NCBI RefSeq assembly: GCF_020193655.1
Contig: NZ_JADYVE010000004.1
Coordinates: 62,001 to 126,000, forward strand
Direction of reading: 5' to 3'
From: Ensifer sp. IC3342
GTDB taxonomy: Bacteria > Pseudomonadota > Alphaproteobacteria > Rhizobiales > Rhizobiaceae
Length of the DNA: 64,000 bases
A model generated the notes under the pieces. The model was not told where the DNA came from and ran no database searches. It saw only the letters and a list, made by a program, of their open reading frames with translations. A program made the position numbers and the translations under genes. This document shows positions 11,990-15,915 of this stretch, piece after piece. Numbering within the stretch: position 1 is the stretch's first letter; each line of letters begins with the position of its first letter.

Positions 11990-12811
11990 CTAGAATGTCG
12001 GCGGCGTGTTGATCCACAGCAGAATGGTCTCGCCGTCGTGGCGATTGGACCAGGCATGCCGGCGGCGGCTCTCGAAATAGAGCGAGTCGCCCGGATGAAG
12101 ATCGTAGAACTGATCGGAGTCCAATATGAATTCAACGCGACCGGAGAGAACATAGACGAACTCCTCGCCGTCGTGGCGATATGCACCCTCGCTCGAAGCG
12201 CCCGGCGCCAGCACAAAACGATGGCAGTCCATCTGATTTCTGCCTTCCGCGAGCAATTGCACGGTCACCCCTGGCGTCGTGCGCGGCCAGTTGCGCCACT
12301 CGCCGGCCCTGACGAGCGCCCGTACCTCCGGTTCTTCTTCCCCCGAAAGGCTGGAAACAGTCGTGCCGAAATATTCCGCGAGATTATGGAGCACTGCAAC
12401 GGAGACGCCCTGCGAGGTGCGTTCCAAGGTCGAGAGCACCGATGCGGCAATGCCGACATCGTTTGCCACCTGCTCGAGCGTCTTGCCCGCGGCGTGCCGC
12501 AGGCTCCGCAACTTTCGGCCCACCTGGAGATCGGCACTGCTCTCCGACGATGCAGCCGGACCGTCGTCGTTCGCGCCCTCTGCCTCCAAAGCCTCGCGTA
12601 TGGCGGCCGGGTTCAGACCGCGCTCGGCACGAAACCAGGATATGCGCTTCAGTCGGGCGAGATCTGCATCGGTATATTGCCGATGCCCCGTCGCCGAACG
12701 CTCGGGCACTACGAGCCCCTGCGTCTCCCACAGCCTGAGCGTGGACGCCGACACGCCGGCGAGCCTCGCCGCCTCGGCGACCTTATAGCGTATATTGCCG
12801 GCTCCGCTCAT
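11990..12811 (-). CDS. MerR + XRE + cupin three-domain transcriptional regulator
   Basis: Unusual regulator of 273 aa with three modules. A MerR-type winged HTH spans residues about 8-70 (YKVAEAARLAGVSASTLRLWE, with the GHRQYTDADLARL wing). A second XRE/Cro-type HTH spans about 95-155 (RKLRSLRHAAGKTLEQVA). A C-terminal cupin sensor spans about 190-270 (HDGEEFVYVLSGRVEF and PGDSLYFES). The start at 12811 (MSGAGNIRY) has GAGGAAACGG upstream. XRE+cupin regulators commonly control amino-acid or polyamine catabolism; the added MerR head makes this one distinctive. It is divergent from gabT-gabD across 231 bp containing repeated TTGCA motifs, so it is the likely regulator of that operon (inference). 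Confidence 0.9.
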   Translation of the reverse strand: MSGAGNIRYKVAEAARLAGVSASTLRLWETQGLVVPERSATGHRQYTDADLARLKRISWFRAERGLNPAAIREALEAEGANDDGPAASSESSADLQVGRKLRSLRHAAGKTLEQVANDVGIAASVLSTLERTSQGVSVAVLHNLAEYFGTTVSSLSGEEEPEVRALVRAGEWRNWPRTTPGVTVQLLAEGRNQMDCHRFVLAPGASSEGAYRHDGEEFVYVLSGRVEFILDSDQFYDLHPGDSLYFESRRRHAWSNRHDGETILLWINTPPTF

Positions 12812-12946
12812 CGATCCGTTTCCTCTTTCTGGCATCGTGGCTCCAGGCGATTCAAAGCTGTCGGCACTGGAAGCAATCTAGCCGCCGCGCCCGTCGGTTC
12901 ACAAGAAGCGCTCATCAGTGGCGGTGTTGTCTCGATCACCAAATTT

Positions 12947-13008
12947 GATTTGCAATCCATGTGAAAAGATGTACCACTTCCGAAGAAAAATTGCAGAAAA
13001 AATGCAAT
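12947..13008. promoter_or_regulatory. Candidate operator region, TTGCA repeats upstream of gabT
   Basis: Two palindromic sites lie in the divergent spacer: GATT-TGC-AATC at 12947-12957 and ATTGCA-N7-TGCAAT at 12990-13008. The shared TTGCA half-site and the place next to the two-HTH regulator suggest binding sites for it. Not tested. Confidence 0.5.
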
Positions 13009-13042
13009 ATATATTCCTCTCCTCGCAAACAGGACGACGACG

Positions 13043-14311
13043 ATGACCAGCCTCACCGATCGCAAAAACGCAGCCATCTCCCGTGGTGTCGGAATGACCA
13101 CACAGATCTACGCCGACCGTGCCGAAAATGCCGAGATCTGGGACAAGGAGGGCAACCGGTACATCGACTTCGCCGCGGGCATCGCCGTCGTCAACACGGG
13201 CCATCGCCACCCCAAGGTGATCGCAGCGGTCAAGGAGCAGCTCGACCGCTTCACCCACACCTGCCACCAGGTCGTTCCCTACGAAAATTATGTCCATCTC
13301 GCTGAGCGCCTGAACGCGCTGGCGCCGGGCAACTTCGCCAAGAAGACGATCTTCGTCACGACCGGCGCGGAGGCCGTCGAAAACGCGGTCAAGATCGCCC
13401 GCGCCGCGACGGGTCGCCAGGCGATCGTAGCCTTCGGCGGCGGCTTCCACGGCCGCACCTTCATGGGCATGGCGCTGACCGGCAAGGTCGTGCCCTACAA
13501 GGTCGGGTTTGGCGCAATGCCGGGAGACGTCTTCCACGCCCCCTTCCCGATCGAACTGCACGGCGTCAGCGTCGAACAGTCGCTTGCCGCACTGAAGAGA
13601 CTCTTCGCCGCCGATGTCGATCCGGGTCGCGTGGCTGCGATCATCATCGAGCCCGTTCAGGGCGAAGGCGGCTTCTACCCGGCCCCGACCGCCTTCCTGA
13701 AGGCGCTTCGCGAAATCTGTGACCAGCATGGCATCCTGCTGATCGCCGATGAGGTGCAGACCGGCTTTGCCCGCACGGGCAAGCTCTTCGCGATGGAGCA
13801 CCATGACGTCGCGCCCGATCTGATGACGATGGCAAAGAGCCTTGCCGGCGGCTTCCCGCTTGCCGCGGTCACCGGCCGCGCCGAAATCATGGATGCGCCC
13901 GGACCGGGCGGCCTTGGCGGCACCTATGGCGGCAACCCGCTCGGCATTGCCGCGGCCCATGCCGTCCTCGACGTCATCGAGGAGGAGAAGCTGTGCGAGC
14001 GCGCGAACCAGCTTGGCAATCGTCTGAAGCAGCGCCTCGCCGCAATCCGCGACAAGGCGCCGGAGATCGTCGATATTCGCGGTCCGGGCTTCATGAATGC
14101 GGTCGAATTCAACGACGTGAAGACCGGTCTGCCGAGCGCCGAATTCGCCAACAAAGTCCGCCTTATTGCGTTGGAAAAGGGCCTGATCCTGCTGACCTGC
14201 GGCGTCCATGGCAACGTCATCCGCTTCCTGGCGCCGATCACGATCCAGGACGAAGTCTTCGCGGAAGCGCTCGATATTCTCGAAGCGTCGATCATCGAGG
14301 CGCGTGGTTGA
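13043..14311 (+). CDS. gabT: 4-aminobutyrate (GABA) aminotransferase
   Basis: PLP-dependent class III aminotransferase (422 aa) converting 4-aminobutyrate and 2-oxoglutarate to succinate semialdehyde and glutamate. Visible features are GAEAVENAVKIARA (substrate/PLP phosphate binding, near residue 112), FHGRTFMGMALTG near 148, LLIADEVQTGFARTG near 233 with the PLP-contacting Asp, and the Schiff-base Lys in MTMAKSLAGGFPL near 268. Start at 13043 has an AGGA site. gabD follows 128 bp downstream on the same strand, completing the GABA shunt to succinate. Other omega-amine substrates are possible for this family. Confidence 0.95.
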   Translation: MTSLTDRKNAAISRGVGMTTQIYADRAENAEIWDKEGNRYIDFAAGIAVVNTGHRHPKVIAAVKEQLDRFTHTCHQVVPYENYVHLAERLNALAPGNFAKKTIFVTTGAEAVENAVKIARAATGRQAIVAFGGGFHGRTFMGMALTGKVVPYKVGFGAMPGDVFHAPFPIELHGVSVEQSLAALKRLFAADVDPGRVAAIIIEPVQGEGGFYPAPTAFLKALREICDQHGILLIADEVQTGFARTGKLFAMEHHDVAPDLMTMAKSLAGGFPLAAVTGRAEIMDAPGPGGLGGTYGGNPLGIAAAHAVLDVIEEEKLCERANQLGNRLKQRLAAIRDKAPEIVDIRGPGFMNAVEFNDVKTGLPSAEFANKVRLIALEKGLILLTCGVHGNVIRFLAPITIQDEVFAEALDILEASIIEARG

Positions 14312-14439: not shown

Positions 14440-15915
14440 ATGGGATTAACATCCGCACTGACCAAGCACCTGCGAGCAGCCGACCTGTTTGCGGCACTCG
14501 AAAATGTAACCCGGCCCTCCATCAAGTGGACCGGCGCAACCTTCGACGTCTTCAATCCCTCGACCGGTGAATTGCTTGCAACTCTCCCCGATATGGGAAT
14601 CGACGAGGCGCATGCCGCGATCGATGCTTCGGCCGCCGCACAAGGCCCCTGGGCTGCAAAGCCGGCGAAAGAGCGAAGCGCAATCCTGCGCCGCTGGCAC
14701 GACAAGATCATCGAGCATGCCGATGATCTTGCCGCCATCCTCACCGCCGAAATGGGCAAGCCGTTGGCAGAAGCGAAGGGTGAGGTGCTTCACGCGGCGT
14801 CCTATGTCGAGTGGTATGCCGAGGAAGCCAAGCGCGTCTATGGCGAGACCTTCCCCGCGCCGGCCAACGACCGCCGCATGCTCGTCATCAAGCAGCCGGT
14901 CGGTGTCGTCGGCACCATCACGCCATGGAATTTTCCGGCCTCGATGGTGGCGCGCAAGATCTCGCCCGCGCTCGCCGCCGGCTGCGCGGTCGTGCTGAAG
15001 CCGGCGGAACAGACGCCGCTCGTGGCCGGCGCTATGTTCGTGCTCGCGGAAAGGGCCGGTTTTCCGAAAGGCGTCGTCAATTTGCTTTACGCAGCCGAAG
15101 GCGCCCCGATTGGCCGCGAACTCTGCAGCAACCCCAAGGTCCGCAAGATCAGCTTCACCGGCTCCACCGAGGTCGGGCGTCTGCTGATGCGGCAATGCTC
15201 CGACCAGATCAAGAAGGTCAGCCTGGAACTCGGCGGCAATGCGCCCTTCATCGTTTTCGACGACGCCGACATCGACGAGGCGGTGGACGGCGCCGTTCAG
15301 GCCAAATTCCGCAATGCCGGCCAGACCTGCGTTTCGGCCAACCGCATCTATGTGCAATCCGCCGTGCACGGCGCTTTCGCGGAAAAATTCGTCGCCCGCG
15401 TGCGCGAACTTAGTGTCGGCGACGGGTTTTCTGCCGGGGTCGCGATCGGTCCGATGATCGACAGCCATGCGATCGAGAAGATCGAGGCGCATGTCGCCGA
15501 TGCCTTGGCCAAGGGCGGAGAAGTACGATGCGGCGGCAGGCGGATCGGCACCAGGGGTACCTTCTTCGAGCCGACGGTTCTAACCGGCATTACGCATGGC
15601 ATGCGCGTTGCCCAGGAAGAGACCTTCGGCCCGATCGCGCCGATCATCCGTTTCGAAACGGCCGAGCAGGTGGTCGCCGAGGCCAACGACACGATCTATG
15701 GCCTCGCCGCGTATTTCTACGCCGAGAACCTGAAGCGCGTCTGGCACGTGGCCGAAGCGCTCGAATATGGCATGGTCGGCATCAATACCGGGCGGATGTC
15801 TTCAGAAGCCGCGCCCTTCGGCGGCATCAAGCAATCCGGTATCGGCCGGGAAGGCTCCCGCCATGGGCTCGAGGACTACCTCGAGATGAAATATCTCTGC
15901 ATGGGCAATATCTGA
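14440..15915 (+). CDS. gabD: NAD(P)-dependent succinate-semialdehyde dehydrogenase
   Basis: Aldehyde dehydrogenase family enzyme (491 aa) that oxidises succinate semialdehyde, the GabT product, to succinate for the TCA cycle. Conserved elements: TPWNFPASMVARKISPALAAG (cofactor binding, near residue 160), the FTGSTEVGR glycine motif, general base in LELGGNAPFIVFDDAD near 262, and the catalytic Cys in NAGQTCVSANR near 295. The C-terminal GGIKQSGIGREGSRHGLEDYLE is typical of GabD. The ATG at 14440 gives the family length. It converges on ackA 43 bp further on. Confidence 0.95.
   Translation: MGLTSALTKHLRAADLFAALENVTRPSIKWTGATFDVFNPSTGELLATLPDMGIDEAHAAIDASAAAQGPWAAKPAKERSAILRRWHDKIIEHADDLAAILTAEMGKPLAEAKGEVLHAASYVEWYAEEAKRVYGETFPAPANDRRMLVIKQPVGVVGTITPWNFPASMVARKISPALAAGCAVVLKPAEQTPLVAGAMFVLAERAGFPKGVVNLLYAAEGAPIGRELCSNPKVRKISFTGSTEVGRLLMRQCSDQIKKVSLELGGNAPFIVFDDADIDEAVDGAVQAKFRNAGQTCVSANRIYVQSAVHGAFAEKFVARVRELSVGDGFSAGVAIGPMIDSHAIEKIEAHVADALAKGGEVRCGGRRIGTRGTFFEPTVLTGITHGMRVAQEETFGPIAPIIRFETAEQVVAEANDTIYGLAAYFYAENLKRVWHVAEALEYGMVGINTGRMSSEAAPFGGIKQSGIGREGSRHGLEDYLEMKYLCMGNI

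Follow-up and report, generated by a model that had tools for sequence, protein, structure and literature searches.

A gene in Ensifer sp. IC3342, divergent from the GABA aminotransferase gene gabT, encodes a single protein chain in which two DNA-binding heads of unrelated families precede a cupin domain. The locus thereby raises the question of what such a regulator controls, and through which of its heads it recognizes DNA. We analyzed it within a 64,000-nucleotide stretch of contig NZ_JADYVE010000004.1 (positions 62,001–126,000), hereafter the window, to whose numbering all coordinates refer. The genome around the window comprises 7.4 Mb in 115 contigs and is Sinorhizobium-like, the top named plasmid match being S. 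mexicanum (95.7%), with near relatives of the window possibly excluded from that comparison.

Domain organization of the regulator

11990..12811, minus strand: regulator gene, encoding a 273-amino acid MerR-XRE-cupin protein, very probably a GabR ortholog (open frame, Pfam matches, ortholog stops)
12581..12787, minus strand: MerR-type winged helix-turn-helix (HTH) head, residues 17–85 (MerR_1 match, invariant S31–E37)
12527..12580, minus strand: linker between the heads, residues 86–103 (low conservation, variable length)
12356..12526, minus strand: Cro/XRE-type HTH head, residues 104–160 (HTH_31 and HTH_3 matches, 104–161)
12011..12220, minus strand: cupin sensor domain, residues 206–275 (Cupin_2 match)

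The regulator lies in an enclosing open frame of 281 amino acids (11990–12835, minus strand), the numbering of which is used for all residues here. Its start is placed at M9 of this frame (position 12811), because the orthologs at loci L119 and L126 have stops directly upstream of that methionine. The protein is thus 273 amino acids in length, as in the original prediction, and the three domains named there all exceed their Pfam cut-offs. MerR_1 matches residues 17–85 with 78.6 bits (cut-off 21.6), and the Pfam MerR model also matches (50.3 bits), which identifies this head as a MerR winged HTH. The second head scores 57.0 bits with HTH_31 (cut-off 27) and 32.8 bits with HTH_3 (cut-off 23), and Cupin_2 matches residues 206–275 with 69.5 bits (cut-off 27.2). 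Four cupin residues (H221, E224, E225, and H260) show no variation across 12 divergent members. The order of an HTH followed by Cupin_2 is that of XRE-cupin proteins of the PuuR/PauR type, but this HTH is not the sole DNA-binding domain, given the MerR_1 head at residues 17–85. The regulator has no Pfam match to the GntR HTH and aminotransferase-like domain that make up a MocR-type GabR.

MerR proteins usually have their winged HTH directly before a long dimerization helix, together with an effector domain. In an alignment of 39 chosen orthologs, linker 86–103 is gapped and has a mean modal frequency of 0.31, versus 0.75–0.83 in the three domains. This speaks against a long dimerization helix of the MerR type, and the MerR heads are therefore probably carried on a flexible tether. 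TnrA is among the structural matches of the MerR head. Public records annotate close members as "MerR family transcriptional regulator," including an S. meliloti record with the same gene order as in the window, and this label masks the XRE-cupin body.

A palindromic site between the regulator and gabT

13043..14311, plus strand: gabT, GABA aminotransferase, the probable target gene (NCBIfam NF005692, 874 bits; cut-off 724)
14440..15915, plus strand: gabD, succinate-semialdehyde dehydrogenase, in the probable target operon (TIGR01780, 674 bits; cut-off 646)
12991..13007, plus strand: putative operator O2, TTGCA-N7-TGCAA, TTGCAGAAAAAATGCAA
13008..13015, plus strand: TATATATT, possible −10 element of gabT adjoining O2 (assigned from its sequence)

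The regulator gene is divergent from gabT-gabD, and the spacer between them had been predicted to hold two kinds of TTGCA palindrome. The one at 12991–13007 is real and conserved: TTGCAGAAAAAATGCAA occurs upstream of gabT, without change, in 27 of 30 aligned spacers from the genus, and locus L026 has a paired change in its arms (TTACA...TGTAA). More widely the motif is a 17-bp palindrome, YTRCA-GAAAAAA-TGYAR. With up to two mismatches, YTRCAGAAAAAATGYAR is present in all 141 divergent regulator-gabT spacers, which are those left of 150 loci after setting aside eight without gabT at ≥60% identity and L081, which was out of range. Some genomes are represented by duplicate loci, and the 141 therefore correspond to 122 distinct spacers (71 with no mismatch, 48 with one, and three with two). 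Markov controls gave one occurrence in 2440 at up to two mismatches. This genome has a single perfect copy (12991–13007); six further copies have two mismatches, and no copy has exactly one. A palindromic putative operator at a neighboring metabolic gene, as found for XRE-cupin regulators, is thus present in 141/141 spacers.

A TAT-rich stretch follows the operator in the genus alignment. The gabT promoter in the window has a −10-like TATATT and no clear −35. Elsewhere in the spacer, CTCGATCACCAAATTTGATTTGC (12931–12953) is strongly conserved within the genus and partially in related genera; it is perhaps the promoter of the regulator itself.

Distribution and origin of the fusion

That MerR and XRE heads normally belong to separate families, as the original prediction stated, is true in general, but the MerR-XRE-cupin chain recurs in this family (matches at E≤1e-40 in 56 of 297 sampled genomes, own genome included). 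In a sample of 60 genomes, including this one, matches at E≤1e-30 occur in 32 of 32 further genomes of the genus (the match in G008 being partial), in one of three from the same family, and in none of 24 from the same order. A class-wide sample yielded three matches among 289 genomes, namely the own genome, a racemase fusion (G099), and an XRE-cupin protein without the MerR head (G228). In a phylum-wide sample, an alignment-based search matched 43 of 398 genomes at E≤1e-25; eight of the matches span the whole model and most others cover the XRE-cupin part only. A scan of contigs gave 363 relatives, and the best 80 of them, which were retained, are all close; a search of a phage collection gave nothing useful. 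The architecture thus defines an established subfamily of Rhizobiaceae and of some further families.

In a tree of the XRE-cupin part (55 rows, excluding L005, L085, L200, and most near-copies), all 29 MerR-bearing proteins fall on the same side of a branch with support of 96/95, and the tree is therefore compatible with a single fusion of the MerR head. This is support for a single origin rather than proof, because long branches meet at that point and the plain XRE-cupin rows were mostly retrieved by a profile built on the fused proteins. The family offers a natural case in which two unrelated DNA-binding heads have been kept together since an apparent single fusion, and allows one to ask what the second head does.

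Several members depart from this plan. Four have about 350 additional residues (L079 4545–6455; L080 of G604; L083 3733–5686; and L199 of G708) and form one clade (100/100); the two that were scanned, L079 and L083, each contain a full proline racemase domain. In these fusions the regulator is joined to an enzyme, and no operator with up to two mismatches was found near G598, G604, and G099 (34–38% identical) or G708 (36%). The same search found none near the distant member in G448 (about 38–40% identical). At L085 4185–5020 (G400, among the 56 matching family genomes), the MerR and XRE parts are in different frames, so that the chain is split between its heads, by sequencing error or genuinely; both operators are intact there. 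Three loci of the same genus (L077, L081, and L082) have a second regulator, about 42–45% identical, convergent to another gabD. CTACAGAAAATATGCTG is located upstream of this second gabD in all three, and L081 retains a gabT-like remnant between the CTACAGAAAATATGCTG site and the second gabD.

Co-occurrence of the operator and the regulator

Among the 56 regulator-bearing genomes of the family, 53 have a gabT-type regulator, and G448, G598, and G604 have distant members. In 49 of the 53, the 900 bp upstream of the regulator contain a site with no or one mismatch (the entry for the own genome, G000, being taken from its motif scan). The remaining four (G520, G449, G577, and G560) have the regulator unlinked from gabT, and in all four a palindrome with perfect arms is still located at gabT. 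It is found at −141 or −148 of gabT in G520, G449, and G577, with two, four, and four mismatches, respectively, all of them central. In G560, the regulator is 177 kb away and two exact tandem operator copies are present at gabT.

The gabT promoters of genomes without the regulator served as a control. Of 30 such family genomes chosen (no match at E≤1e-40 among up to eight scored candidates per genome), 12 yielded gabT at E≤1e-150, in a total of 13 loci. The palindrome is in none of these 13 promoters (350 bp each), including those of three gabT genes that are 81–83% identical to the one in the window. The presence of the palindrome at gabT in the unlinked genomes and its absence from all 13 regulator-less promoters indicate that gabT is very probably the target, and so support the likely role at gabT that had been predicted for the double-headed protein; as genomes and spacers share descent, these counts are not independent events. 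Outside the family, an exact operator (G977) and a symmetric variant, TTGCAGGAAAACTGCAA (G880), are situated between a 57–58% identical regulator and a divergent gabT (73–76% identity).

Pure self-regulation was rejected. At the three unlinked regulator loci checked, no arms-perfect site occurs in the 400 bp before the regulator, and gabT retains it.

Of 241 family genomes without the regulator, 61 contain the motif at some position with up to one mismatch, versus 29 of 241 for a reversed-pattern control (about twofold), and the motif is therefore not wholly confined to carriers of the regulator. One regulator-less genome (G469) has an exact copy and G545 has an extra one (contig C4); neither copy is close to gabT or gabD. 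In G572, an exact operator (L231 1489–1505) lies ~78 bp before an ABC-transporter solute-binding gene (SBP_bac_8), about 5 kb from the regulator, which suggests that uptake is part of the regulon in that genome.

Single, tandem, and decayed operators

12950..12955, plus strand: TTGCAA element, possible −35 hexamer, 2 bp ahead of the first operator position (assigned from the placement of TTG in spacers)
12958..12974, plus strand: decayed first operator O1' (CATGTGAAAAGATGTAC), at an offset of exactly 33 bp upstream of O2

Two sites are present in 36 of the 122 distinct spacers, at a spacing of 33 bp in 25, 32 bp in six, 34 bp in three, and 11 and 28 bp in one each. Another 46 have the upstream site (O1) only and 40 have one intact site of the O2 type. 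A TTG hexamer precedes the first intact site in 81 of the 122, by 2 bp in 77 and by 3 bp in four; the 41 spacers that lack it are essentially of the Sinorhizobium/Ensifer type. In 40 spacers of this type, what similarity to the motif is left peaks at −33 among 73 upstream offsets (7.08 mismatches versus a mean of 11.81), and in 39 of the 40 a TTG is placed 2 bp before the decayed site. In the window, this site is O1', which keeps the right half-site ATGTAC. A tandem pair might have been the ancestral state, but this idea is weakened because in the 46 spacers with O1 only, position +33 holds no clear remnant of another site (10.98 mismatches versus a mean of 11.71).

The second of the predicted TTGCA palindromes, GATTTGCAATC (12947–12957), lacks conservation as a palindrome: of the 30 genus spacers, 15 retain TTTGCAATC and eight have TTTGCTTTC in its place. 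The TTGCAA near 12950 was accordingly rejected as an operator in its own right, and by sequence comparison is the TTG element beside the decayed first operator. What stands of the prediction for the spacer is the palindrome at 12991–13007 and the presence of two sites.

O1 and O2 were compared in the 34 two-site spacers with a spacing of 32–34 bp. In these, the A-tract of O1 and its right arm, TGTAG, are fixed and 3.15 of 5 of its arm pairs are symmetric, and O2 has 4.85 of 5 arm pairs symmetric and a free center. Two kinds of site thus do exist, and they are not quite the pair first proposed.

Proposed mechanism and alternatives

We consider it likely, with a probability of about 0.6, that the protein is the rhizobial GabR, a local repressor of the divergent gabT-gabD that is relieved by GABA or the semialdehyde and that consists of an XRE-cupin body with a MerR head. 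According to this model, an XRE-cupin repressor of the PuuR/PauR type would carry the additional MerR head on a flexible tether, and a GabR dimer would cover the gabT promoter by occupying a single 17-bp palindrome, as with O2 in the window, or, in many relatives, a tandem O1-O2 pair separated by about 33 bp, or three helical turns. GabR would block the gabT promoter in the absence of inducer. Binding of GABA or of its product, succinic semialdehyde, in the cupin pocket would release GabR from DNA and turn gabTD on. The architecture, the operator, its co-occurrence with the regulator, and gabT as the target are well supported by sequence; we infer the dimer, the tether, the ligand, repression rather than activation, and the head that reads the operator. 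GABA-relieved repression is proposed because other XRE-cupin proteins, such as those of P. aeruginosa, are local inhibitors, with palindromic motifs where these have been determined, and because PuuR comes off DNA on sensing putrescine (PMC7901475).

Reported expression in nodules provides a setting for such a switch. At what is very probably the corresponding R. leguminosarum locus, where the regulator gene bears the name gabR, pea bacteroids show increases of about 80-, 65-, and 7-fold for gabDTR (PMC6421345). GABA breakdown is thus strongly on in pea nodule bacteria, and the regulator, together with its DNA site, is the likely switch. In strain UPM791, the consecutive tags RLV_7109–7111 are assigned to GabD, GabT, and a MerR regulator, the last presumably an ortholog of the regulator studied here; RLV_7111 is reported as overexpressed in lentil bacteroids and GabD as 3.24-fold higher in pea (PMC7950203), which would fit repression. 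The gabT transcript is reported as about equal in the two hosts (0.85-fold; PMC10228743), which does not fit repression.

As to which head reads the operator, the recognition-helix residues S31–E37 of the MerR head are invariant in the 39 chosen orthologs, and positions 131 and 133 of the XRE head, which by comparison with phage repressors probably lie at the start of its recognition helix, vary. The MerR head is therefore slightly favored as the reader. Invariance of S31–E37 is in part family consensus, because the racemase fusions, members without the gabT operator, likewise show no variation at T32, L33, R34, and W36. The original prediction suggested that the two TTGCA palindromes may be read by one head each, which as stated is unsupported; intact tandem O1 and O2 share one motif, and the simplest reading is therefore that one type of head binds both.

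MerR proteins are often activators. Their promoters have 19–20 bp spacers with the operator inside, and the sites of TnrA and GlnR have a 5-7-5 geometry. The regulator could accordingly be a MerR-type activator, its MerR head sitting in a stretched-spacer promoter and untwisting it when the cupin senses GABA, with the XRE head mainly a dimer platform. The TTG that 81 of the 122 distinct spacers have 2 or 3 bp ahead of their first site would suit this, as would an A/T-rich hexamer at a 20-bp spacing that would match MerR promoters, the 5-7-5 geometry of the site taken with the TnrA match of the MerR head, and the −10-like TATATT without a clear −35 in the window. However, the best-conserved hexamer after the TTG (TAGGAW) is at a 16-bp spacing, as in an ordinary promoter lying under an operator, although this hexamer overlaps the right arm of the operator itself. 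The 20-bp spacing is weakened as a sign of activation because the 16-bp reading is at least equally conserved; as the spacer of this first promoter can be read as either 16 or 20 bp, activation as by MerR proteins retains some probability. In P. aeruginosa, each of the eight XRE-cupin proteins examined acts as an inhibitor (PMC7901475), and on balance we hold activation to be a minor possibility.

The differences between O1 and O2 permit another arrangement, in which one pair of heads occupies the symmetric O2 and the other pair O1, so that a dimer bridges ~33 bp. The 32–34 bp spacing in 34 of 36 two-site spacers, the near-symmetric O2 with its free center beside an O1 with fixed A-tract and TGTAG arm, and the retention of both heads with their recognition-helix cores across a variable linker are in line with it. 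We nevertheless consider it unlikely: O1 and O2 share a motif and, for the most part, the left arm TTGCAG, which favors a single type of head, the additional constraints on O1 may stem from an overlapping promoter, and spacers with O1 only (46 of 122) or one O2-type site (40 of 122) indicate that two full sites are unnecessary. In its most elaborate form, which is slightly more doubtful again, the homodimer would present four DNA-binding domains, drawn from two unrelated families. One type of head would sit on symmetric O2 and the other on asymmetric O1 three helical turns away, and the cupin would toggle a clamp that holds both sites over the gabT promoter; reduction of O1 to a half-site in Sinorhizobium would alter the logic of the clamp. 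Finally, the palindrome might serve a different regulator or be part of the gabT promoter, with GabR a mere neighbor. The site is in a promoter region and its conservation could have other causes, but it tracks the regulator rather than gabT (present at gabT in 4/4 unlinked genomes, in 0/13 regulator-less promoters) and accompanies it in the two genomes outside the family, which makes a bystander role for GabR highly improbable.

The repressor model thus remains our preferred reading. It is in keeping with gabT being reportedly induced by GABA, as the title of an article by Prell et al. 2002 (Microbiology 148:615-623) has it.

Comparison with known systems

Judged by sequence, the regulator resembles PuuR of E. 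coli and PauR, PsdR, and ErfA of P. aeruginosa in its XRE HTH and Cupin_2 body, probable local control of catabolism, and palindromic site. The PuuR profile aligns over positions 4–185 of 185 with residues 101–281. Unlike PuuR, however, the regulator scores 53.3 bits where the PRK09943 equivalog cut-off is 211, and unlike the XRE-cupin repressors in general it has an additional N-terminal MerR head. PauR has 29 direct target genes, its regulon including the gabT2 operon (PMC7901475), whereas the regulator has one perfect site in this genome. With the MerR family (TipA, TnrA/GlnR, and CueR), the regulator shares a winged HTH with the family consensus helix and wing; unlike in that family, a linker of low conservation comes after this head and leads to another HTH that is unrelated to it.

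The closest named counterpart is GabR of R. leguminosarum. In R. johnstonii 3841 (locus L178), the regulator is 75% identical and likewise divergent from gabT-gabD, and it is very probably the ortholog, an identity drawn from gene order. Control of GABA genes and the name GabR are also shared by the MocR-type protein of B. subtilis (GntR with an aminotransferase domain), the PucR-type protein of Corynebacterium, and the sigma-54-dependent protein of B. thuringiensis, all of which have unrelated domains. Titles and the starts of abstracts in the open-licence literature yielded no description of the MerR-XRE-cupin architecture, and "MerR" is absent from the main text of the survey of XRE-cupin proteins (PMC7901475). 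The gabR name, the XRE-cupin body, and the target pathway are thus known and the second head is unusual; newly outlined are the putative operator, which is single, doubled, or half-decayed according to lineage, and with it a likely GABA switch.
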